DNA from: Polaribacter haliotis
GTDB lineage: Bacteria > Bacteroidota > Bacteroidia > Flavobacteriales > Flavobacteriaceae
Direction of reading: 5' to 3'
NCBI RefSeq assembly: GCF_014784055.1
Contig: NZ_CP061813.1
Location: 2,552,001 to 2,616,000, forward strand
DNA: 64,000 nt
Shown: piece by piece, positions 8,900-19,025 of the stretch
How positions within the stretch are numbered: position 1 is the first letter of the stretch
Layout: each line of letters opens with the position of its first letter
Program-made: the position numbers and the translations under genes
The notes under the pieces: generated by a model
Told to the model about the DNA's origin: nothing
Seen by the model: the letters and a program-made list of their open reading frames with translations, nothing else
The model's database searches: none

Positions 8900-9523
8900 A
8901 TGAAAAAACTACTTCCTATACTCTTCTTTGTGTTTGTAGTTTCAACAAATGCACAATCCGATTTTAAAAGTTTTCTAAAATTATCTGGACCTATAAAAAC
9001 ATGGGTTTTGTTTCATCCTTTTAAAGCTAAAAAGTCTCTAGAAATTTCTATGGAAACAAACAGAGTTGCAGATTCCATAAGAAAAACGAATTTATTGGAT
9101 GGAGATCCTGCTGGAGGCCAAGTAGATGCTTTTAGACATGCTTATTGGATGGCTCGTTTGCGACAAGAATTAGGAAAATCTTCTGCAAGATCTTTAGGAA
9201 AAGCACACGAAAGAGATAATTACATTACCTATAAAAAAATGAAATTAGAAGATGGAGTTGTGCCTGATGAGATTTCATCGGAAATGGATTTGTATAATAA
9301 TGAAGAAGGTTTAAAAATTATCACTAGAAATAGTGAAGTTTCAAAAAACGGATTAATTTTTAGAATTGTAAATGCCATTCATCATGGAAAAATGAAAATT
9401 ATCAAAAAAGATAAAGATGGTAATTTTTTAACTTGCGATGGAAAAATAATTCCAAAAGAAAGTTTAAAAAGGAAATGGAAAAATAGTAAATGTTTAATTT
9501 CTTCTAATCAAAAAATTCGTTAA
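8900..9523 (+). CDS. Exported protein of unknown function (DUF6973-like)
   Basis: A 207-residue protein with a Sec signal (FVVSTNAQS cleavage region). The core has the motif GGQVDAFRHAYWMARL, then SLGKAHERDN and MDLYNNEEGL. The conserved Asp, Arg, His and Glu in this pattern resemble DUF6973 proteins; a metal-binding hydrolase fold is possible but not shown. The C-terminus is Lys-rich. It is the last gene of a short run with the BNR protein and DUF2200. Confidence 0.65.
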   Translation: MKKLLPILFFVFVVSTNAQSDFKSFLKLSGPIKTWVLFHPFKAKKSLEISMETNRVADSIRKTNLLDGDPAGGQVDAFRHAYWMARLRQELGKSSARSLGKAHERDNYITYKKMKLEDGVVPDEISSEMDLYNNEEGLKIITRNSEVSKNGLIFRIVNAIHHGKMKIIKKDKDGNFLTCDGKIIPKESLKRKWKNSKCLISSNQKIR

Positions 9524-9568: not shown

Positions 9569-11857
9569 TTGAAAAAAATAGTTTTCCACTACTGCACCTT
9601 AATATTTTGCATTCTACTTGCATTTTCAAGTGGTTATTCGCAATCTTATAAAGTACTTTCTAAAGAAGAAAAACAAAATTTTGCATTGCAGTCGCAAGTA
9701 ATTTTTAAAGTTGCAGCTTTAAATAAAGCTTCTATTGATACATTATTAGAGTCGAAACAAGATTTTGCTATTGAATATGTTGCCAAGAGCGATTTAAATT
9801 TAATTGAGTATTTCTTAAAAAAGAAAAAAAAAGTAACTGTCGTAACAAGTGAAAACGCAAAGAATCTTTTAGATAAATTCCCTACAGTTCTTCAAATAAA
9901 TTCCTCTGAAATAGATTCTCTCAATTTGCAAAATTTAAGTGTTGTAGATAGTACTAAAACACTTTTTAAAGAGCTAAAAGAACTAACTAGTATTAATTTT
10001 ATCAATAATAAAAAAATTACAGATAGTATTGTATTTCGTATTTGGGAAAGGTCTGGGAAAGTTCCAAATTTTATTTATGCCGATTCAAATTCAATCGCAA
10101 AAACTACGAAACTTGTATCATTTTTAAATTCGACAGAAAAAATATTTGGTGTTGTAAAAACAAAAGAAAAATTACTTAAAAATGTATCGTTTAAAAATTT
10201 TCCAAATAGAAAAGCAAACGGATATTTTAGTTTTCCATTTCGCTTTGATAATAAAAGTCCAATTTTAATTCCATACAAAGCTGGGTATTATTTTTCGCCA
10301 GATATTATTTATGCAAATTTAGAGAACAGGGGAAATCAAAAAGAGTTTATCGGTTTTCCTTTAGACCTTAATTTTGGGTTAACAGATTCTTTTGAGTTTA
10401 AAAAAAAGGTTTTAAATCGTATTCGAAATAATAACGAAGATATTATTTCTAAACAAGTACAAATTGTAAATGATTCTGTGCATGGAAAAGTTGGTTTTTT
10501 TAATAAAAGAGCCTACATAGATGCAGGTATAGAAAGTAGATCTTCCCTAAAATCTAGTTTTACAATTACTGCTTGGATAAAACCCACAAAACTTGGTAAT
10601 GCTAATAGTATTTTGGGAAAAGGAAAGCATTTTGTATTAAAAGTACATAGTGGGTATTTAACCTTTACAATGGCTGGTATTAAAGATTATTTTTCTTTTT
10701 CATCACCAATTCCAATTAATAAATGGACACATGTTTCACTTGTGTATTCAGAAGTACATAATGAGTTGTATTTTTATATTAATGGAAAAAAAACGGATAC
10801 TGTTTCCCTTATTTCAAATTACATTACCTCAGACCACAATTTATATATTGGTAATAATTTATGGGAAGAATTTTTTATAGGCTATTTAGGTGCTATTAAT
10901 ATTTGGGAAAGAGAGTTAAATAGTTCAGAAATTTTTTCGCAATATAATAACCCAAACTTAGGAAAAGGTAAAATCAATTTAAAGCTTTATTTAGGTATCG
11001 GGTTTTTAGTTTTGGTAAGTTTAATTATTCTATATCTTTTTAAGAGAGCTAATAGAAAATCAAAATTTAGTTCTACATTAAATACACCTAATAAACCATT
11101 AAATACACTTTTAGATACTTATATAGTAAAGCTTTATTGTTTTGGTTCATTGCAAATAATAAACGAAGAAAATATAGATATTGCACAAAAATTATCACCA
11201 AAATTAAAACAACTTTTCTTAATTATATTTTTAGAAAGTGTTAAAGATGGTATTGGAATTTCTACGAAAAAACTAACAGAAATTTTATGGCCTGGAATGG
11301 ATCCTAAAAGTGCAAAGAACACAAGAGGAACAAATATTCAAAACTTAAGATCCTTGCTTTCTACTTGCTCTCAAATAAAACTACTTTTTATAAATAAACA
11401 TTGGTTTTTAGATATTAGTGATAACTGTTTTTGTGATTATGATATAGCGAATAGTTATATAGAATTATTTGCTAGCGAGCAATACAACGTAAAACTTTTA
11501 GAAGAAAAATTACCAATTTTGTTATCGTTATTAAAAAGAGGTAGGTTGTTTACCAACACTAGCGCAACTTGGCTAGACCCACATATCGAAAAATTTAGTT
11601 TTAAAATAACTAAAGAATGCTTCCATTACATAGATTCTTTATCGATAGAAAAACATGCAGATATGCTTTTAGAAGCAATAGAAATAATTCATTTTTATGA
11701 CGATTTAAATGAAAAAGCATTACAGTTAAAACTTAAAATATTAATTCATCAGGGTAAGTTAAGTTTAGCACGTCTTTTGTATGATAATTTTTCTAAATTA
11801 TATAAAAATATTTACAAAGAAAACTACCCGATTACATTCGAAAAGAGTATATCGTAG
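9569..11857 (+). CDS. Membrane-spanning transcriptional regulator: LamG sensor, TM helix, SARP-like winged helix and BTAD-like domain
   Basis: The predicted product has 762 residues. It starts with a signal/anchor (residues 1-25), then an unassigned extracytoplasmic region. A concanavalin-like LamG domain follows at about 318-455 (SFTITAWIKP, WTHVSLVYS, ELYFYINGKK, YIGNNLW, GAINIWERELNSSEI). One TM helix lies at about 469-492, followed by basic KRANRKSK. The cytoplasmic part begins with an OmpR/SARP-like winged helix (about 517-614, VKLYCFGSLQI, LTEILWPGMDPKSAKNTRG). It ends in a helical domain like the bacterial transcriptional activator domain (DLNEKALQLKLKILIHQGK). The start is TTG; no ATG lies between it and the upstream in-frame stop. 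It probably senses a glycan and controls the operon starting at 12004. Confidence 0.75.
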   Translation: MKKIVFHYCTLIFCILLAFSSGYSQSYKVLSKEEKQNFALQSQVIFKVAALNKASIDTLLESKQDFAIEYVAKSDLNLIEYFLKKKKKVTVVTSENAKNLLDKFPTVLQINSSEIDSLNLQNLSVVDSTKTLFKELKELTSINFINNKKITDSIVFRIWERSGKVPNFIYADSNSIAKTTKLVSFLNSTEKIFGVVKTKEKLLKNVSFKNFPNRKANGYFSFPFRFDNKSPILIPYKAGYYFSPDIIYANLENRGNQKEFIGFPLDLNFGLTDSFEFKKKVLNRIRNNNEDIISKQVQIVNDSVHGKVGFFNKRAYIDAGIESRSSLKSSFTITAWIKPTKLGNANSILGKGKHFVLKVHSGYLTFTMAGIKDYFSFSSPIPINKWTHVSLVYSEVHNELYFYINGKKTDTVSLISNYITSDHNLYIGNNLWEEFFIGYLGAINIWERELNSSEIFSQYNNPNLGKGKINLKLYLGIGFLVLVSLIILYLFKRANRKSKFSSTLNTPNKPLNTLLDTYIVKLYCFGSLQIINEENIDIAQKLSPKLKQLFLIIFLESVKDGIGISTKKLTEILWPGMDPKSAKNTRGTNIQNLRSLLSTCSQIKLLFINKHWFLDISDNCFCDYDIANSYIELFASEQYNVKLLEEKLPILLSLLKRGRLFTNTSATWLDPHIEKFSFKITKECFHYIDSLSIEKHADMLLEAIEIIHFYDDLNEKALQLKLKILIHQGKLSLARLLYDNFSKLYKNIYKENYPITFEKSIS

Positions 11858-11923
11858 TATTTTTCTAATAAACAAAGGGAATAATCTTTTTTAGATATTT
11901 ATAAAAAAAAAGAATTTTTAATT

Positions 11924-11957
11924 TTTATTACCCCATTTATTACCCTTCTTTTTACCT
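11924..11957 (+). promoter_or_regulatory. Putative activator site: three direct repeats of TTTATTACCC with 12-bp period
   Basis: Copies lie at 11924-11933 (TTTATTACCC), 11936-11945 (TTTATTACCC, identical) and 11948-11957 (CTTTTTACCT, 7 of 10). The last copy ends 9 bp before the -7 box of the oxidoreductase operon, and no -33 TTTG is present. Tandem direct repeats with an 11-bp period, next to the -10 box, are the known binding pattern of SARP activators, and a SARP-like regulator is encoded just upstream. Regulation is inferred. Confidence 0.5.
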
Positions 11958-11966
11958 ACATGCATT

Positions 11967-11974
11967 TATTTTTG
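11967..11974 (+). promoter_or_regulatory. -7 promoter element of the glycoside-oxidation operon
   Basis: TATTTTTG matches TAnnTTTG, 29 bp before the ATG of the Gfo/Idh/MocA gene. The -33 position lacks TTTG and is instead occupied by the direct repeats, which suggests an activator-dependent promoter. Confidence 0.6.
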
Positions 11975-12003
11975 ATGCTTAATCGAATTCCAAATAGTAT
12001 TAT

Positions 12004-13272
12004 ATGAGCAACGAATTAAACAGTAGAAGAAGTTTTGTTAAAAAGTCTTTAGCAATAACAGCTGGAATATCAATTATTCCAAGGCATGTAATGGGTGGTA
12101 CAAATTTTTTAGCCCCAAGTGACCAACTTACCAAAGCAGTAATTGGAGTTGGAGGTATGGGACAAGGTCATTTAACTTACGAAGGCACAAAATTATTAGC
12201 TATTTGCGATGTAGATGGAAAACACTTATCTAATACTCTTAAAAAAGTAGGGTCAGATGTAAAAGGATATCGAGATTTTAGAGAAGTATTAGCAAGACCA
12301 GATATAGATATTGTACATATTGCAACACCTCCTCATTGGCATGGAATTATGTCGGTAATGGCTGCAGAAGCAGGTAAAGATGTTTGGTGCGAAAAACCAA
12401 TGACAAGAACAATTGGAGAAGGAAAAAGAGTTGTGGAAGCAATGAAAGTTCATGGAAAAATGTTCCGATTAAATACATGGTTTCGATTTAAGAGTAATTT
12501 TTACGGAATGGGAACTCCCGTAAAAAAAATAAAAAAAGTAGTTGATAGTGGCGCTTTAGGTTGGCCCTTAAAAGTAACCATAAGTGGTGTAACAGGTTTT
12601 AACTGGAAGTTTTATTGGGTTGGTAAAGAAAATTTAAAGCCACAAGACGTTCCTGCCCATTTCGATTATGATATGTGGTTGGGTCCAGCACCAGAAAAAC
12701 CATATAATGCACACAGAACTCATTCTACATTTAGAGGTTATTGGGATTATGATGGAGGTGGTTTAGGAGATATGGGACAACATTATATAGACCCTGTTCA
12801 ATACTTTTTAGGAAAAGACAATACAAGCCCTATTAAAGTAGAAATTGATGCACCACAACAACATTACGATGCAATTGGTACTTGGCGTAAAATTGTTTTC
12901 ACGTATGCAGATGGTTGCCAGATTATTTTAGATGGCGAAAATAAAGATAAGAATGCTGCATATGTAGAAGGGCCTAATGGAAAAATTTTTAACGGATTTA
13001 AGTCTACCATACCAAATATTGAAGGTTTAGTAAATAGCCTTCCCGATCCAGAAGAACAAATTGGATTATTTTCAGACTCAGTAAAAACTCGACAAAAATT
13101 TGCTCTAAATGAAGAAAATGGACATCGTTCTGCAACCATTGTAAATATGGGCTTAGCTGCATTAAGATTGGGTAGAAATTTAGATTTTGATCCAGTAAAG
13201 CAAGAATTTATTAATGATGAAGCCGCAAATAGATTAATTAACCAACCAAAAAGAACTTCTTGGGAAAACTAA
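12004..13272 (+). CDS. Tat-exported Gfo/Idh/MocA family oxidoreductase
   Basis: The 422-residue product has a twin-arginine signal (NSRRSFVKKSLAITA, Arg8-Arg9), so it should fold in the cytoplasm with its cofactor and be exported. The Rossmann motif is VIGVGGMGQGH and the family EKP motif is CEKPMTRT. The C-terminal alpha/beta domain is of Gfo/Idh/MocA type. Such enzymes interconvert hydroxyl and keto groups on sugars or inositols with bound NAD(P). It is the first gene of a four-gene run with a DUF1080 protein, a GMC dehydrogenase and its small subunit. That context points to 3-keto-sugar chemistry in the periplasm. The exact substrate is unknown. Confidence 0.88.
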   Translation: MSNELNSRRSFVKKSLAITAGISIIPRHVMGGTNFLAPSDQLTKAVIGVGGMGQGHLTYEGTKLLAICDVDGKHLSNTLKKVGSDVKGYRDFREVLARPDIDIVHIATPPHWHGIMSVMAAEAGKDVWCEKPMTRTIGEGKRVVEAMKVHGKMFRLNTWFRFKSNFYGMGTPVKKIKKVVDSGALGWPLKVTISGVTGFNWKFYWVGKENLKPQDVPAHFDYDMWLGPAPEKPYNAHRTHSTFRGYWDYDGGGLGDMGQHYIDPVQYFLGKDNTSPIKVEIDAPQQHYDAIGTWRKIVFTYADGCQIILDGENKDKNAAYVEGPNGKIFNGFKSTIPNIEGLVNSLPDPEEQIGLFSDSVKTRQKFALNEENGHRSATIVNMGLAALRLGRNLDFDPVKQEFINDEAANRLINQPKRTSWEN

Positions 13273-13283
13273 TATAAACACAA

Positions 13284-16200
13284 ATGAAATATTTATATAA
13301 TACAATTATAACAGTCCTTTTTATTTGCTTTTCTGTAACTGCTGGTTACTCTCAAATAAACAGAACTTTAGATACTAAAGTTGCAGATATCTTGGCACAA
13401 ATGCCAGCTAAAAACAACGACCATATTAATAAATTAATGGAAGATGTTTTAAGTTTACAGAAAGAAGGTATTCTTAAACTTTGCGACATGTTAGTTCCTT
13501 TAGGTACAGGAGATGATACCAATGCACGCTTTACCATAAATAGTTTGGTTATGTATGTTGGAAAAAACAATATTAAAAATGAAAATATTGTTGAAGAAGC
13601 ATTAATTACAGCAATTAATAAAACAAATTCTAGTGAAGTAAAAACATTTTTAATAGAACGCTTACAATATTGTGCTACCAATAATAGCATTAAAGCTTTA
13701 AACGAATATTTATATGGGAATGAGTTTTATAAACCTGCCTTAGCTGTTTTAACAAACATTGGAACAAATGAAGCGTCACAAGCAATCTTAACTGCTTTAA
13801 AAGAGAGTAAAGAACGACAACAAGTTGCTTTTATCAATGCTTTGGGCGTATTAAAGTATTCTCCAGCTGTTGCAACAATCGAAAATTTAGGCAATTCAAA
13901 ATCAATTGAAATACAAAGACATGTTTTAAAAGCATTGGCAAATATTGCATCTCCAAATTCGTATGAAACATTATACAATGCAGCTAAAAAAGCAGATTTT
14001 AAAGAAGAAAATACTGAGGCTGTTTTATCTTTTATCCATTTTGGTATGCAACAAAACAACCCTAAAGTTAAAGAAAAAATAGGTAAAGTTATTTTAAAAA
14101 AATGTACTTCTAACGAGCAATTATATTTTAGAACAGCAGGTTTACACCTTTTAAATAATCAAAAAGAAGCTTCTGTATTAAAAAGATTATTAAAAGAATT
14201 TAAGAATAAAGATAATGCTTATAGAGGAGCTGTTGTTGCAATTGCATCGAATAATTTAACCTCTAAAAATCTTTCAAAATGGGCAAAAAGATTTAAGAAG
14301 ACTTCACCAGAAGGAAAAGTGCAATTGGTTGGAATGGTTCAAAAAAGAACGGAAAAAGAAATAATTTCTTCATTTATTCTTCCTGCAATAAAAAGTAAAC
14401 ATGAAACTGTTAAAATAGCTGGAATTAAAGCCTTGGCTTTTCAATCTAAAAACAGTGCTTATCCAATTTTATTTGATGTTTTATCAAAATCTCAAACACC
14501 TTCAGAAGTTTCGGCGATAAAAGGTAGTTTACTTCGTTTAACATCAAAAAATGAAATTAATGATATTGCTAGTAATTTAGTAAAAACAAACACGAAAGGT
14601 AAAGTTACACTTGTACAAATATTGGCTGCTAGAAATGCAACCTCGAAATTCGACCAAATTATTTCTTTGTTAGATGATATTAATGAACCTGTTCAAAAAG
14701 CCGTATATAATTCGTTACCAAAAATTGCTACTCCAGCAAATTTATCACAATTAATAAATTTACTAAATAATACAGAAGTTCCAGAATATGTTTCTAACAT
14801 ACAGAGAGCTATAACAGTTGTATTAGACGAATCTAAAGAAGATTTATCTGGAGTTGTTCTTGGAGCTTATAAAAAAGTATCAAAAAAAGAAAAGTTATTA
14901 CCAATTCTACCAATTTTAAACAATAAAGAAGCATTAGATTTGGTAACCTCTTCTTTAAAATCTAACAATTTAAAGGAAAGAGAAAATGCGTTAGAAGCTT
15001 TATCTAAATGGAGAAATAAAGATGCGATTCCTTATTTATTTGAAGCAGCAAGTAATAATTCGGAATTACATTCGCAAGCGTTTAATATGTATCTTTCACA
15101 AGTAATTAATTCTAATAATACAGCCGATCAAAAGTTATTATTAGTTGAAAAAATAATGTCTTTTAGTAAAAATATTGAAGAACAAAAGAGAGTTATTAAT
15201 AGCGCTCGCTCAATTAAAACTTTTTTGTCTTTAATATTCGTTTCTAAATATTTAGATAACCAAAATTTAAGAGCTACAGCTTCTAATGCAGTCATTAAAA
15301 TTGCGTTGCCAACTCCAGGGAAAAACGATGCTTTAAGTGGGAAAATTGTTAGAGAAATTGTCTCTAAGAGTATGAATAATATTACAGGACCTGATAGTCA
15401 ATATATAAAAATTGATGTTAAAGAATTTTTAGACAAAATGCCAAATGTAAAAGGTTTTGAATCTATTTTTAATGGAAATGATTTGTCTGGTTGGGAAGGA
15501 TTGGTTAAAAACCCAATAGCAAGAGCAAAAATGACTAAAAAGCAATTGGCAGATGCACAAGAAAAAGCAAATGCACAAATGCTTAGAGATTGGTTTGTAA
15601 AAGATGGTATTATTGGTTTTAAAGGGGAAGGTTACAATAATATTTGTACAATAAAAGATTATGGAGATTTTGAAATGTTGGTAGACTGGAAAATTACCAA
15701 TGGTGGAGATAGTGGAATTTATTTAAGAGGAACACCTCAAGTACAAATTTGGGATATTGCAAGAACTAATGTTGGTGCAGAAGTAGGAAGTGGTGGTTTG
15801 TATAACAATCAGAAGCATAAAAGTACTCCATTAGTTGTTGCAGATAATCCAATTAATGATTGGAACACATTCCGTATTAAAATGGTTGGTGAGCGTGTAA
15901 CAGTTCATTTGAATGGTATTTTGGTAACAGACAATGTAGTTCTTGAAAATTATTGGGATAGAAAATTACCAATTTTTACAAAAGAAGCCATAGAATTACA
16001 AGCACATGGAGAAGATTTAGGGTTTAGAAATGTGTATGTTAGAGAAATTTCTTCTGGAGACGATTCATTATCGGCAGAGGAAAAACAAGAGGGGTTTTCT
16101 TCTCTTTTTAATGGTAGAGATTTAGATCATTGGGTAGGAAATAAGAAAGATTATTTAGTTGAAAATAATATTTTGGTTGTACGTCCAGAACAAGGAGGTC

Positions 16201-16676
16201 ATGGTAATTTATATACAGCTAACGAATATTCTGACTTTAATTTCAGATTCGAATTTAAGCTTACACCTGGTGCAAATAATGGTTTAGGAATACACACTCC
16301 TTTAGAAGGCGATGCTGCTTATGTAGGTAAAGAATTGCAAATTTTAGATAATACAGCATCTATTTACGCAAATCTAAGACCTTACCAATATCATGGTTCT
16401 GTTTATGGAGTAATCGCTGCAAAAAGAGGTTTTCTAAAACCTGTTGGAGAATGGAATTCGGAAGAAGTTATTGTAAAAGGAAATCATATTAAAATTATTT
16501 TAAACGGAACTGTTATTGTTGATGGAAATTGGGAGGAAGCTTCTAAAAATGGTACATTAGATAAGAAAAATCATCCAGGATTAAAAAGAAATAAAGGGCA
16601 TATTGCTTTTCTTGGTCATGGATCTGAATTGGAGTTTAGAAATATAAGAATTAAAGATTTGTCTAAAAATAAATAA
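13284..16676 (+). CDS. HEAT-repeat protein with two DUF1080 (3-keto-disaccharide hydrolase type) domains
   Basis: A 1130-residue exported protein (signal peptide to about residue 24, AGYSQ). Residues of about 50-710 are alpha-helical HEAT/ARM-like repeats. Two copies of the DUF1080 beta-sandwich follow: about 725-922 (ESIFNGNDLSGWEG, GGDSGIYLRG, VQIWD) and about 938-1127 (SSLFNGRDLDHWVG, GANNGLGIHTP, LQILDN). DUF1080 domains are known to cleave glycosidic bonds of 3-keto-glycosides. The operon also encodes a GMC oxidase that could make the 3-keto group, so the pair fits. The long HEAT region may be a scaffold. The first copy keeps the acidic WD/GDSG residues; the second is more divergent (LGIHTP). 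Confidence 0.82.
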   Translation: MKYLYNTIITVLFICFSVTAGYSQINRTLDTKVADILAQMPAKNNDHINKLMEDVLSLQKEGILKLCDMLVPLGTGDDTNARFTINSLVMYVGKNNIKNENIVEEALITAINKTNSSEVKTFLIERLQYCATNNSIKALNEYLYGNEFYKPALAVLTNIGTNEASQAILTALKESKERQQVAFINALGVLKYSPAVATIENLGNSKSIEIQRHVLKALANIASPNSYETLYNAAKKADFKEENTEAVLSFIHFGMQQNNPKVKEKIGKVILKKCTSNEQLYFRTAGLHLLNNQKEASVLKRLLKEFKNKDNAYRGAVVAIASNNLTSKNLSKWAKRFKKTSPEGKVQLVGMVQKRTEKEIISSFILPAIKSKHETVKIAGIKALAFQSKNSAYPILFDVLSKSQTPSEVSAIKGSLLRLTSKNEINDIASNLVKTNTKGKVTLVQILAARNATSKFDQIISLLDDINEPVQKAVYNSLPKIATPANLSQLINLLNNTEVPEYVSNIQRAITVVLDESKEDLSGVVLGAYKKVSKKEKLLPILPILNNKEALDLVTSSLKSNNLKERENALEALSKWRNKDAIPYLFEAASNNSELHSQAFNMYLSQVINSNNTADQKLLLVEKIMSFSKNIEEQKRVINSARSIKTFLSLIFVSKYLDNQNLRATASNAVIKIALPTPGKNDALSGKIVREIVSKSMNNITGPDSQYIKIDVKEFLDKMPNVKGFESIFNGNDLSGWEGLVKNPIARAKMTKKQLADAQEKANAQMLRDWFVKDGIIGFKGEGYNNICTIKDYGDFEMLVDWKITNGGDSGIYLRGTPQVQIWDIARTNVGAEVGSGGLYNNQKHKSTPLVVADNPINDWNTFRIKMVGERVTVHLNGILVTDNVVLENYWDRKLPIFTKEAIELQAHGEDLGFRNVYVREISSGDDSLSAEEKQEGFSSLFNGRDLDHWVGNKKDYLVENNILVVRPEQGGHGNLYTANEYSDFNFRFEFKLTPGANNGLGIHTPLEGDAAYVGKELQILDNTASIYANLRPYQYHGSVYGVIAAKRGFLKPVGEWNSEEVIVKGNHIKIILNGTVIVDGNWEEASKNGTLDKKNHPGLKRNKGHIAFLGHGSELEFRNIRIKDLSKNK

Positions 16677-16697
16677 TACTTAATTTTATTGTTTAGA

Positions 16698-18401
16698 ATG
16701 AACAACAAAAGTAATGAAGAAATGTACGATGCTATTGTTATAGGTACTGGAGTTTCTGGTGGTTGGGCTGCCAAGGAATTAAGTGAACAAGGTTTAAAGG
16801 TATTGGTGTTAGAAAGGGGTAGAATGATTAAACATGTAGAAGATTACCCTACAATGGATATGGATACCTGGGATTTTGAGAATCGTGGATTAACAGCCTC
16901 AGATCAACCTAAAACGCAAGAAAAACAGGCACGTTCTGGTTATACCACAAGTGAAGTTTCTAGACATTGGTTTGTAAACGACATTAAACATCCTTACAAC
17001 GAAGAAAAAAGATTCGATTGGCTTCGTGGTTACCATGTTGGAGGTAGGTCTATAATGTGGGGAAGACAAGTTTTACGTTTAAGTGATTTAGATTTTGAAG
17101 CAAATAAAAAAGAAGGTATTGCTGTAGATTGGCCAATTAGATACAAAGATATAGCACCTTGGTACGATAAAGTTGAAGCTTATATTGGTGTAAGTGCAGA
17201 AAAATTAAATTTACCACAATTACCAGATGGTGTTTTTACACCACCAATGGATTTAAACTGTGTGGAAACTGAATTCAGAAATAAACTTCACGAAACTTAT
17301 AATAATAGACATTTAACTATTGGAAGGTTTGCGAATATAACTGGAGATAAAATTTATGAAGGTAGAGGTAAATGTTTACATAGAAATCGTTGTATGAGAG
17401 GTTGTCCTTATGGAGCGTATTTTAGTAGTAATTCAACTACTTTACCTGCTGCAAATAGAAGTGGAAACATGACCTTAAGAGCCAATTCTATTGTAAGTAA
17501 AATTATTTATGACGATACTAAAAAATTAGCAACCGGAGTTGAAGTGATTGATGCAATTACCCATGAAAAAATGCAGTTTTCTGCTAAAATTATTTTTTGT
17601 TGTGCTTCAACAGTAGCTAGTGCTGCAATTCTTTTAAATTCAACTTCAAAAAGATTTCCAAACGGTTTAGGAAATGATTCTGGAGAATTGGGGCATAATT
17701 TAATGGATCATCATTTTCAAGTTGGTGCAACAGCTTTAGTAGAAGGCTTTGACGATAAATATTATACAGGTAAAAGACCTGCGAGTTTTCATATTCCTAG
17801 ATTTAGAAATTTAGGAGATGCCAAAACCAAACAAAAATATTTACGTGGTTTTGGATTTCAAGGAAGTGCAAGTAGAACAAAATGGAGCAGAGCTATTAAA
17901 GAAATGAGTTTTGGTGAAGATTTAAAAGAAGAATTATTTAAACCTGGGCCATGGAAAATAGGAATGACTGCTTTTGGAGAGTGCTTGCCCTATCATGAAA
18001 ACAAAATAACTTTAAATTACGAGAAATTAAACGAATGGGGATTGCCAACCGTTACTTTTGATTGTGAATTTAAAGAGAATGAAAAAGAAATGCGAAAAGA
18101 CATTCAGCAAGAAGCTATAAATATGATGAAAGCTGCAGGTTTTAAAAATGTAAAAGGCTATGACAATCCGTGTTTTCCAGGAAATGCAATCCATGAAATG
18201 GGAACAGCAAGAATGGGGCATGATCCAAAAACATCTGTACTTAACAAAAACAATCAAGTACATGCAGTACCTAATGTTTATGTAACGGATGGTGCTTGTA
18301 TGAGTTCTTCTCCATATCAAAACCCCTCTTTAACTTATATGGCATTAACTGCGAGAGCAGCTCATCATGCAGTTGAGCAATTAAAAGCTAAGAAATTTTA
18401 A
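16698..18401 (+). CDS. GMC-family FAD oxidoreductase, probable glycoside 3-dehydrogenase large subunit
   Basis: The ATG at 16698 is preferred over an in-frame TTG at 16689, giving 567 residues. The FAD motif is AIVIGTGVSGGWAAKELSEQ followed by LVLERG. A Cys cluster (CLHRNRCMRGCPYG) follows, and the C-terminal GMC domain has HEMGTARMGHDP and VTDGACMSSSPYQNPSLT. This layout is that of gluconate/sorbitol/glucoside dehydrogenase large subunits, which oxidise sugars and pass electrons to a membrane acceptor. It has no signal peptide. The next gene, 4 bp downstream, encodes a Tat-signal small subunit, so export as a complex is likely. No cytochrome c gene is adjacent. Confidence 0.87.
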   Translation: MNNKSNEEMYDAIVIGTGVSGGWAAKELSEQGLKVLVLERGRMIKHVEDYPTMDMDTWDFENRGLTASDQPKTQEKQARSGYTTSEVSRHWFVNDIKHPYNEEKRFDWLRGYHVGGRSIMWGRQVLRLSDLDFEANKKEGIAVDWPIRYKDIAPWYDKVEAYIGVSAEKLNLPQLPDGVFTPPMDLNCVETEFRNKLHETYNNRHLTIGRFANITGDKIYEGRGKCLHRNRCMRGCPYGAYFSSNSTTLPAANRSGNMTLRANSIVSKIIYDDTKKLATGVEVIDAITHEKMQFSAKIIFCCASTVASAAILLNSTSKRFPNGLGNDSGELGHNLMDHHFQVGATALVEGFDDKYYTGKRPASFHIPRFRNLGDAKTKQKYLRGFGFQGSASRTKWSRAIKEMSFGEDLKEELFKPGPWKIGMTAFGECLPYHENKITLNYEKLNEWGLPTVTFDCEFKENEKEMRKDIQQEAINMMKAAGFKNVKGYDNPCFPGNAIHEMGTARMGHDPKTSVLNKNNQVHAVPNVYVTDGACMSSSPYQNPSLTYMALTARAAHHAVEQLKAKKF

Positions 18402-18404
18402 AGT

Positions 18405-19025
18405 ATGAAAAGAAGAGAATCACTAAAAATACTAACATTTGGTTTAGGTAGTATTATTGCTACACCTATGCTTATGCAATTACTTAGTTCTTGTAAGACA
18501 GAAAATGACACGAAATTGGTCTATCCGTTTTTAACGGAAGAAGGTTTTTTTGTAGTATCTAATTTAGCAGACCTTATTTTACCAGCATCTAAAACCATTG
18601 GAGCTTTAGATGTTAAAGTGCCACAATTTATAGATTTAGTTTTAAAAAAGGTTGCTACCAAAGAAGAACAAGAAAAATTTAATAAAGGTGCTGTTCTTTT
18701 TAAAAAATCGTTTAAAGAAACTTTTGCAAAAGAAATTTATGAAGGGACAAAAAGTGATTTTTTAAAAATGTTAAACAAATATTTTAAAATCCCTTCAGAA
18801 AAACAAACACAAATTTTTAAACTACTAGAAAGCAAACAAGTTTCTACAGAAAATAAAGATACTTATTTTATGTATAGTTATTTAATGTTTATTAGACAGT
18901 ATACGCTTTTTGGTTATTACACATCAGAAGAAGTGGGAAAAGAAATTTTAACTTACAATACAACACCAGGATTTTATAATGGTTGTGTTCCAGTAGAAGA
19001 AGCTGGTAACATTCAATCTGCCTAA
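18405..19025 (+). CDS. Gluconate 2-dehydrogenase subunit 3 family protein (Tat lipoprotein)
   Basis: A 206-residue protein. The N-terminus combines a twin-arginine-like motif (MKRRESLKIL) with a lipobox ending at Cys30 (MQLLSSC). The middle has NLADLILPASKTIGALDVKVPQFIDLVL, trimmed here to the family hallmarks NLADLILPAS and VPQFIDLVL, and the end contains GCVP. Subunit 3 proteins bind the GMC large subunit and carry it through the Tat system as a passenger, then anchor it. It closes the operon. Confidence 0.85.
   Translation: MKRRESLKILTFGLGSIIATPMLMQLLSSCKTENDTKLVYPFLTEEGFFVVSNLADLILPASKTIGALDVKVPQFIDLVLKKVATKEEQEKFNKGAVLFKKSFKETFAKEIYEGTKSDFLKMLNKYFKIPSEKQTQIFKLLESKQVSTENKDTYFMYSYLMFIRQYTLFGYYTSEEVGKEILTYNTTPGFYNGCVPVEEAGNIQSA

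Follow-up and report, generated by a model that had tools for sequence, protein, structure and literature searches.

A probable membrane-tethered regulator with a SARP-type core beside a 3-keto-glycoside operon in Polaribacter haliotis

The closest described relatives of the regulator considered here are those of the SARP family (AfsR, EmbR, ActII-ORF4, PimR). Its gene lies in a 64,000-nucleotide stretch of the Polaribacter haliotis genome (NZ_CP061813.1, positions 2,552,001 to 2,616,000; hereafter the window, whose own numbering is used), directly before an operon predicted to oxidise and cleave glycosides. It shares with SARPs a winged helix plus bacterial transcriptional activator domain (BTAD), matched whole-length in AfsR and EmbR, and, at its predicted target, direct heptamer repeats that end 8 bp before the −10 element, or here the −7 element (PMC10936776, PMC10972967). 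Unlike SARPs, it comes from Bacteroidota, its core is C-terminal and apparently membrane-anchored behind a periplasmic lectin-type sensor, its repeats have a 12-bp period, and its setting is sugar catabolism rather than antibiotic synthesis.

Other known systems share parts of this arrangement. SusR and SusR4 (BT2160) of Bacteroides thetaiotaomicron also have a periplasmic sensor, a transmembrane (TM) helix and a cytoplasmic DNA-binding domain, a likeness of predicted layout only, and the account of SusR in PMC3878776 describes its DNA-binding domain as resembling no known family. BT2160, a different membrane regulator with a predicted direct-repeat site, adjoins the BT2156–BT2160 glycoside 3-dehydrogenase/3-keto-hydrolase operon (PMC3878776, PMC11879859, PMC11300592, PMC9007349), whose periplasmic glycoside 3-dehydrogenase (BT2158) and 3-ketotrehalose hydrolase (BT2157) make up the counterpart of this pathway (PMC11300592, PMC9007349). 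The hybrid two-component systems (HTCS) of Bacteroidota likewise unite a membrane glycan sensor and a DNA-binding domain in one protein, but carry kinase, receiver and AraC-type domains (PMC3878776), none of which was found in the window's protein, where the C-terminus is a SARP core. In the lactose pathway of Caulobacter (LacABC plus DUF1080) a 3-dehydrogenase stands near a DUF1080 hydrolase, as at 13284–19025 here, and the passages on that pathway in PMC9007349 mention no regulator of this kind. The membrane-bound OmpR-type regulators ToxR, CadC and TcpP have a domain order that is reversed relative to this protein, whose winged helix is C-terminal. Their cytoplasmic DNA-binding domain is N-terminal and their periplasmic domain C-terminal, and they are not known to carry a BTAD.

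We consider it likely that the window's protein is a membrane-tethered, one-component activator with a SARP core that controls a periplasmic 3-keto-glycoside operon. The regulator gene comprises the following parts:

9569..11857, + strand: regulator gene, 762 amino acids, ordered as signal peptide, N-terminal region, LamG, TM helix, SARP core
9569..9643, + strand: predicted signal peptide, residues ~1–25 (hydropathy; helix 2–20 in the model)
9644..10522, + strand: N-terminal region, residues ~26–318 (alpha/beta to ~200, then beta strands)
10547..10933, + strand: segment between the N-terminal region and the TM helix
10979..11053, + strand: TM helix, residues 471–495, then a K/R-rich stretch (hydropathy and model)
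11105..11419, + strand: OmpR-type winged helix-turn-helix, residues ~513–617 (structure model and fold match)
11420..11854, + strand: BTAD-like helical domain, residues ~618–762 (structure; weak PF03704 in relatives)

The structure model of the C-terminal core is confident (predicted local distance difference test, pLDDT, 93) and contains an OmpR-type winged helix followed by an all-helical BTAD, the arrangement that defines SARPs. A fold search with the core returned AfsR and EmbR as the sole matches under E 1e-3, both spanning the whole core, and the original reading of the C-terminus as winged helix plus BTAD thus held at the level of structure. The assignment rests on structure because sequence-only searches gave no match: none was found in the PDB with the C-terminus, and Pfam picked up neither winged helix nor BTAD in the protein encoded by the window. 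Among relatives, PF03704 (BTAD) appeared weakly at E values up to 10, in 17/53 full-length proteins (best 9.3e-4) and 11/35 cores (best 1.2e-4). NCBIfam gave the regulator one weak match only (TafC, 17.5 against a cut-off of 410 bits). Full-length fold searches were dominated by the LamG jellyroll, and matches to clostridial toxin binding domains were set aside as uninformative on function, since they reflect a common lectin fold.

Domain search, hydropathy and structure model together predict a periplasmic LamG domain (the single Pfam family matched in this regulator), one TM helix and a cytoplasmic SARP core, in agreement with the original prediction. Its suggestion that sensing needs no phosphorelay also fits, in that Pfam found neither kinase nor receiver domains in the window protein, and no receiver (REC) domain appears there or among the 25 of 40 families listed for 53 members. 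Its description of the protein as envelope-spanning was too strong, as only the inner membrane is crossed. The further claim that no such system has been described stands insofar as we found no paper describing the layout (most subscription journals lay outside the search), but in annotation pipelines relatives already go by the names “DNA-binding SARP family transcriptional activator” and “two-component SAPR family response regulator,” which shows that the SARP core is recognised there; the SAPR name (COG3947) implies a receiver domain that was not found in this protein.

Between the regulator and its neighbouring operon lies a probable operator, recognised from sequence pattern as three TTACCCC-type heptamers before a −7 element (11928–11974):

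11928..11958, + strand: predicted operator, direct repeats 11928–11934, 11940–11946 and 11952–11958 (12-bp period)
11967..11974, + strand: predicted −7 element TATTTTTG (TAnnTTTG), separated from the third repeat by 8 bp
12004..13272, + strand: Gfo/Idh/MocA oxidoreductase, predicted periplasmic 3-dehydrogenase (PF19051, E 5.9e-144)
13284..16676, + strand: HEAT repeats and two 3-keto-disaccharide hydrolase (DUF1080) stretches (PF06439, PF13646)
16689..18401, + strand: GMC oxidoreductase, LacA-like (PF05199, PF00732)
18405..19025, + strand: Gluconate_2-dh3 (Gdh3) family subunit (PF13618, E 3.6e-18)

The Gfo/Idh/MocA protein has a twin-arginine-like start (read by eye). We take LacA, and with it the LacABC 3-dehydrogenase of Caulobacter, to be of the GMC type, and the Gluconate_2-dh3 subunit to be LacC-like.

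Linkage was counted over 55 loci, i.e., 54 related loci plus the window, several of whose contigs end early (L050 and L055 within the sensor gene); loci from the window's own genome (L001, L002, L057) were excluded from neighbourhood and motif counts. In 42/55 loci the regulator is followed immediately, on its own strand, by Gfo/Idh/MocA; HEAT-DUF1080 is present in 39/55, and GMC with Gdh3 in 5/55. The proposed tie to DUF1080/GMC operons was therefore right for DUF1080, a link that was conserved across genomes, and overstated for GMC; the constant partner is Gfo/Idh/MocA. Across 249 same-family genomes, the sensor occurs in 15, HEAT-DUF1080 in 10 and both in 9 (Fisher p 5.6e-12). Six of the 15 sensor genomes lack HEAT-DUF1080 at the cut used, although in three of the six (G021, G094, G120) the sensor adjoins smaller DUF1080 genes. 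The reverse case is G129, where the operon occurs with no sensor found. A class-level sample held the sensor in 1/395 and HEAT-DUF1080 in 9/395 genomes; as only two candidates per genome were scored, divergent sensors may be missed there. The genome set (G handles) may overlap the genomes of L003–L056, so the two sets of counts are not independent.

The repeat accompanies this linkage closely. A scan of the 54 loci together with the entire window (1,099,223 bases), allowing up to 2/14 mismatches, placed the repeat pair in 42/42 linked loci, and in every one (42/42) the distance from first repeat to TTTG is exactly 43 bp; 41 of these operators lie within the called gap and the remaining one behind a miscalled start. 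In linked loci, three repeats with a 12-bp period are followed after 8 bp by an octamer that resembles the −7 element of Bacteroidota (consensus TAnnTTTG; PMC7366714). Outside the linked loci, the pair was found in front of a DUF1080 gene in L010, in front of another operon in L043, and six further times. Shuffled gaps yielded the repeat at ≤2 mismatches in 4/8400 cases, none with TTTG at 43. The 3.8-Mb genome to which the window belongs contains a single exact copy of the operator, and the regulon may accordingly be confined to this operon. SARP promoters are described with direct repeats of period 11 or 22 bp, an 8-bp gap dividing the 3′ repeat from the −10 element (PMC10936776), the same gap as at the predicted site here; spacers of 4–15 nt (PMC10972967) and three-repeat sites (PMC10936776, PMC10972967) are also reported.

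Does the repeat depend on gene adjacency? Ten genomes carry a regulator that is not next to Gfo (10 of 11 such loci; L010, on the same contig as L160, was left out, as the DUF1080 gene behind its operator is local), and HEAT-DUF1080 is present in 10/10. In 8/10, the remote Gfo gene is preceded by exact copies of both repeats, with TTTG at 43 in seven of the eight; in G636 the remote operator is degenerate (3 mismatches, TTTG at 43), and in G637 the contig ends within the remote Gfo gene. Conversely, in nine orthologous Gfo-HEAT-DUF1080 operons from genomes in which a sensor search found none, the repeat was absent at ≤2 mismatches in 9/9. The promoter repeat tracks the regulator both in cis and in trans.

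Spacing adds specificity to these matches. Among the matches listed, the repeat pattern alone is unspecific (≤1 mismatch in 129/249 genomes, with a similar reversed control), and exact matches in G099, G023, G047 and G196 are unconnected with a sensor. When the TTTG distance was fixed and 2 mismatches were allowed, 15 sites turned up in the ten genomes, compared with 1 for the reversed control; six of these 15 lie elsewhere and look like chance matches.

Several observations weigh against the proposed activator and its operator, beginning with the lack of a Pfam match to winged helix or BTAD in the window's own core. The operator counts are not blind, because the repeats, including the changed one of another clade, were first seen by eye (TTACCCC on reading 25 of the 42 sensor–Gfo gaps). 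The 12-bp period departs from the 11 or 22 bp of SARPs, and in AT-rich DNA TAnnTTT makes a weak motif. The −7 element of the window itself matches the consensus and so need not depend on an activator. Among the sensorless operons only that of G129 is close (Gfo 85% identical), the other eight being at 66–69%, and divergence alone could thus explain part of the absence. In G642, which has the sensor, no operator precedes the HEAT-DUF1080 operon; it stands beside the regulator instead, before another operon. LamG folds, moreover, also serve protein contacts.

At L043:12337 and L190, a copy of the operator stands next to the sensor before a different operon, whose first gene looks aminotransferase-like by eye; with none at the HEAT-DUF1080 operon of that genome, this is possibly a regulon switch. 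L032, L037, L040 and L048 have no local operator, which stands at the remote operon; their sensor is followed by genes that look by eye like extracytoplasmic function (ECF) sigma factor and FecR genes, and three of the four also have a ~690-residue glycoside hydrolase-like protein (by eye).

From the computed fold, topology signals, linkage and regulator-following repeat, we envisage the following mechanism. The N-terminal half would be exported and held in the periplasm, where LamG, the conserved region preceding it, or both would recognise a pathway ligand (the glycoside substrate or its oxidised product); glycan binding by the regulator is thus presumed. The signal would cross the single TM helix, by dimerisation or proteolysis, and the cytoplasmic core would bind two or three of the heptamers, which overlap the place of the −33 element. 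SARPs activate through contacts with sigma region 4 and the alpha CTD; in the manner of AfsR, the core may there contact RNA polymerase and the housekeeping sigma factor, recruiting polymerase to start transcription of the Gfo/Idh/MocA-DUF1080(-GMC-Gdh3) operon, whose products would oxidise glycosides to 3-keto-glycosides in the periplasm and then cleave them. We infer DNA binding, and activation rather than repression, as parts of this scheme.

Which part of the periplasmic half senses the ligand is the step at which another account does best. LamG might not be the sensor but an anchor to peptidoglycan or a partner protein, with region ~155–320 binding the ligand, which we think possible though on balance doubtful. 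Pfam matched no family in the N-terminal region (9644–10522), yet in aligned relatives it holds W159, P166, F242–D245 and others invariant, with many such residues at 159–265, and 14/19 divergent-protein alignments begin at window residues 130–233, so the region before LamG is largely shared and may be the true ligand-binding part. Against an anchoring role, the nearest fold to LamG is an arabinanase domain solved with sugar (5hon), and LamG is retained in 53/53 aligned relatives. Retaining the same DNA target, one may also suppose that, once a ligand has bound, regulated proteolysis frees the core from the membrane to act as an ordinary soluble SARP activator; we hold this unlikely, though a low-confidence linker (residues 496–510, pLDDT <50) separates TM helix and core, and remote target operons need no tethering to a nearby site. 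That the regulator represses the operon until a ligand relieves it strikes us as highly improbable. The predicted sites overlap the promoter, which suits a repressor as well, and the window's consensus −7 element would fit. However, the −7 element departs from consensus (TTnnTTTG) in 16/17 dereplicated sites, a tendency of promoters that depend on an activator. SARP-fold proteins whose sites lie at this distance from the promoter are, in addition, described as activators (PMC10936776). Finally, a mere conserved feature of the promoter or sensor-gene end would account for a repeat lying between sensor and Gfo in linked loci, but it is very hard to reconcile with both repeats before remote operons in 8/10 genomes, their absence from 9/9 sensorless operons (Gfo 66–85% identical) and a sequence that shifts with regulator clade at constant spacing.

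That shift is seen among divergent relatives. A SARP core profile found 27 proteins in 20 of the 249 genomes, and 19 divergent proteins were fetched (the core match in G170, a 434-residue frame, is not among them). One clade, of five, keeps TTACCCC-type repeats and has TAnnTTT at +39 or +40 in 5/5; six loci form a paralogous clade (support 99/97) with TTCACCC-type repeats, sought only in this clade and the nine sensorless controls, and TAnnTTT at +39 or +40 in 5/6. A Gfo-family gene is next in 11/11 members of both clades, and TAnnTTT lies 39–40 bp from the first repeat in 10/11. The remaining eight have no Gfo gene next and no TTACCCC-type repeat, other repeats not having been looked for. A paralogous clade (L148, L152, L156, L157, L158, L159) precedes a ~465-residue Gfo/Idh/MocA-type gene, with no DUF1080 neighbour seen.

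Pfam on 10 of the 19 divergent proteins placed LamG (seven) or kelch repeats (three) before the same core, which makes the layout that of a family with exchangeable sensors. The kelch beta-propeller sensors ahead of the TM helix and SARP core are L161:5547-8084, L162:5454-8048 and L165:5788-8340; no TTACCCC-type repeat was found near them, and L161 adjoins SusC/SusD-like genes (by eye). A search with a kelch member's core gave 184 proteins, and 118/120 among the matches listed have a kelch-type propeller. What appears new here is the proposed use of SARP activation machinery in a membrane receptor. Beyond this, we lean toward a further class of glycan sensing in Bacteroidota, beside SusR, HTCS and ECF sigma/anti-sigma systems: receptors tethered to the membrane and built on a SARP core, whose periplasmic sensors (LamG, kelch) can be exchanged. 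A main branch of them would be devoted to oxidative 3-keto-glycoside breakdown and would read paired direct repeats that diverged in sequence along with the regulator. If true, the SARP mechanism, solved structurally in actinobacteria, extends to membrane receptors of Bacteroidota, and the 3-keto-glycoside route has a dedicated sensor of its own. As the operator is short, defined and matched exactly once in the genome, regulator and ligand are directly testable, and operator scans can suggest operons under the control of other paralogues. The gene immediately before the regulator, at 8900–9523 of the window, encodes a small DUF6973 protein (PF22322), and a relative stands in the same place in L003.
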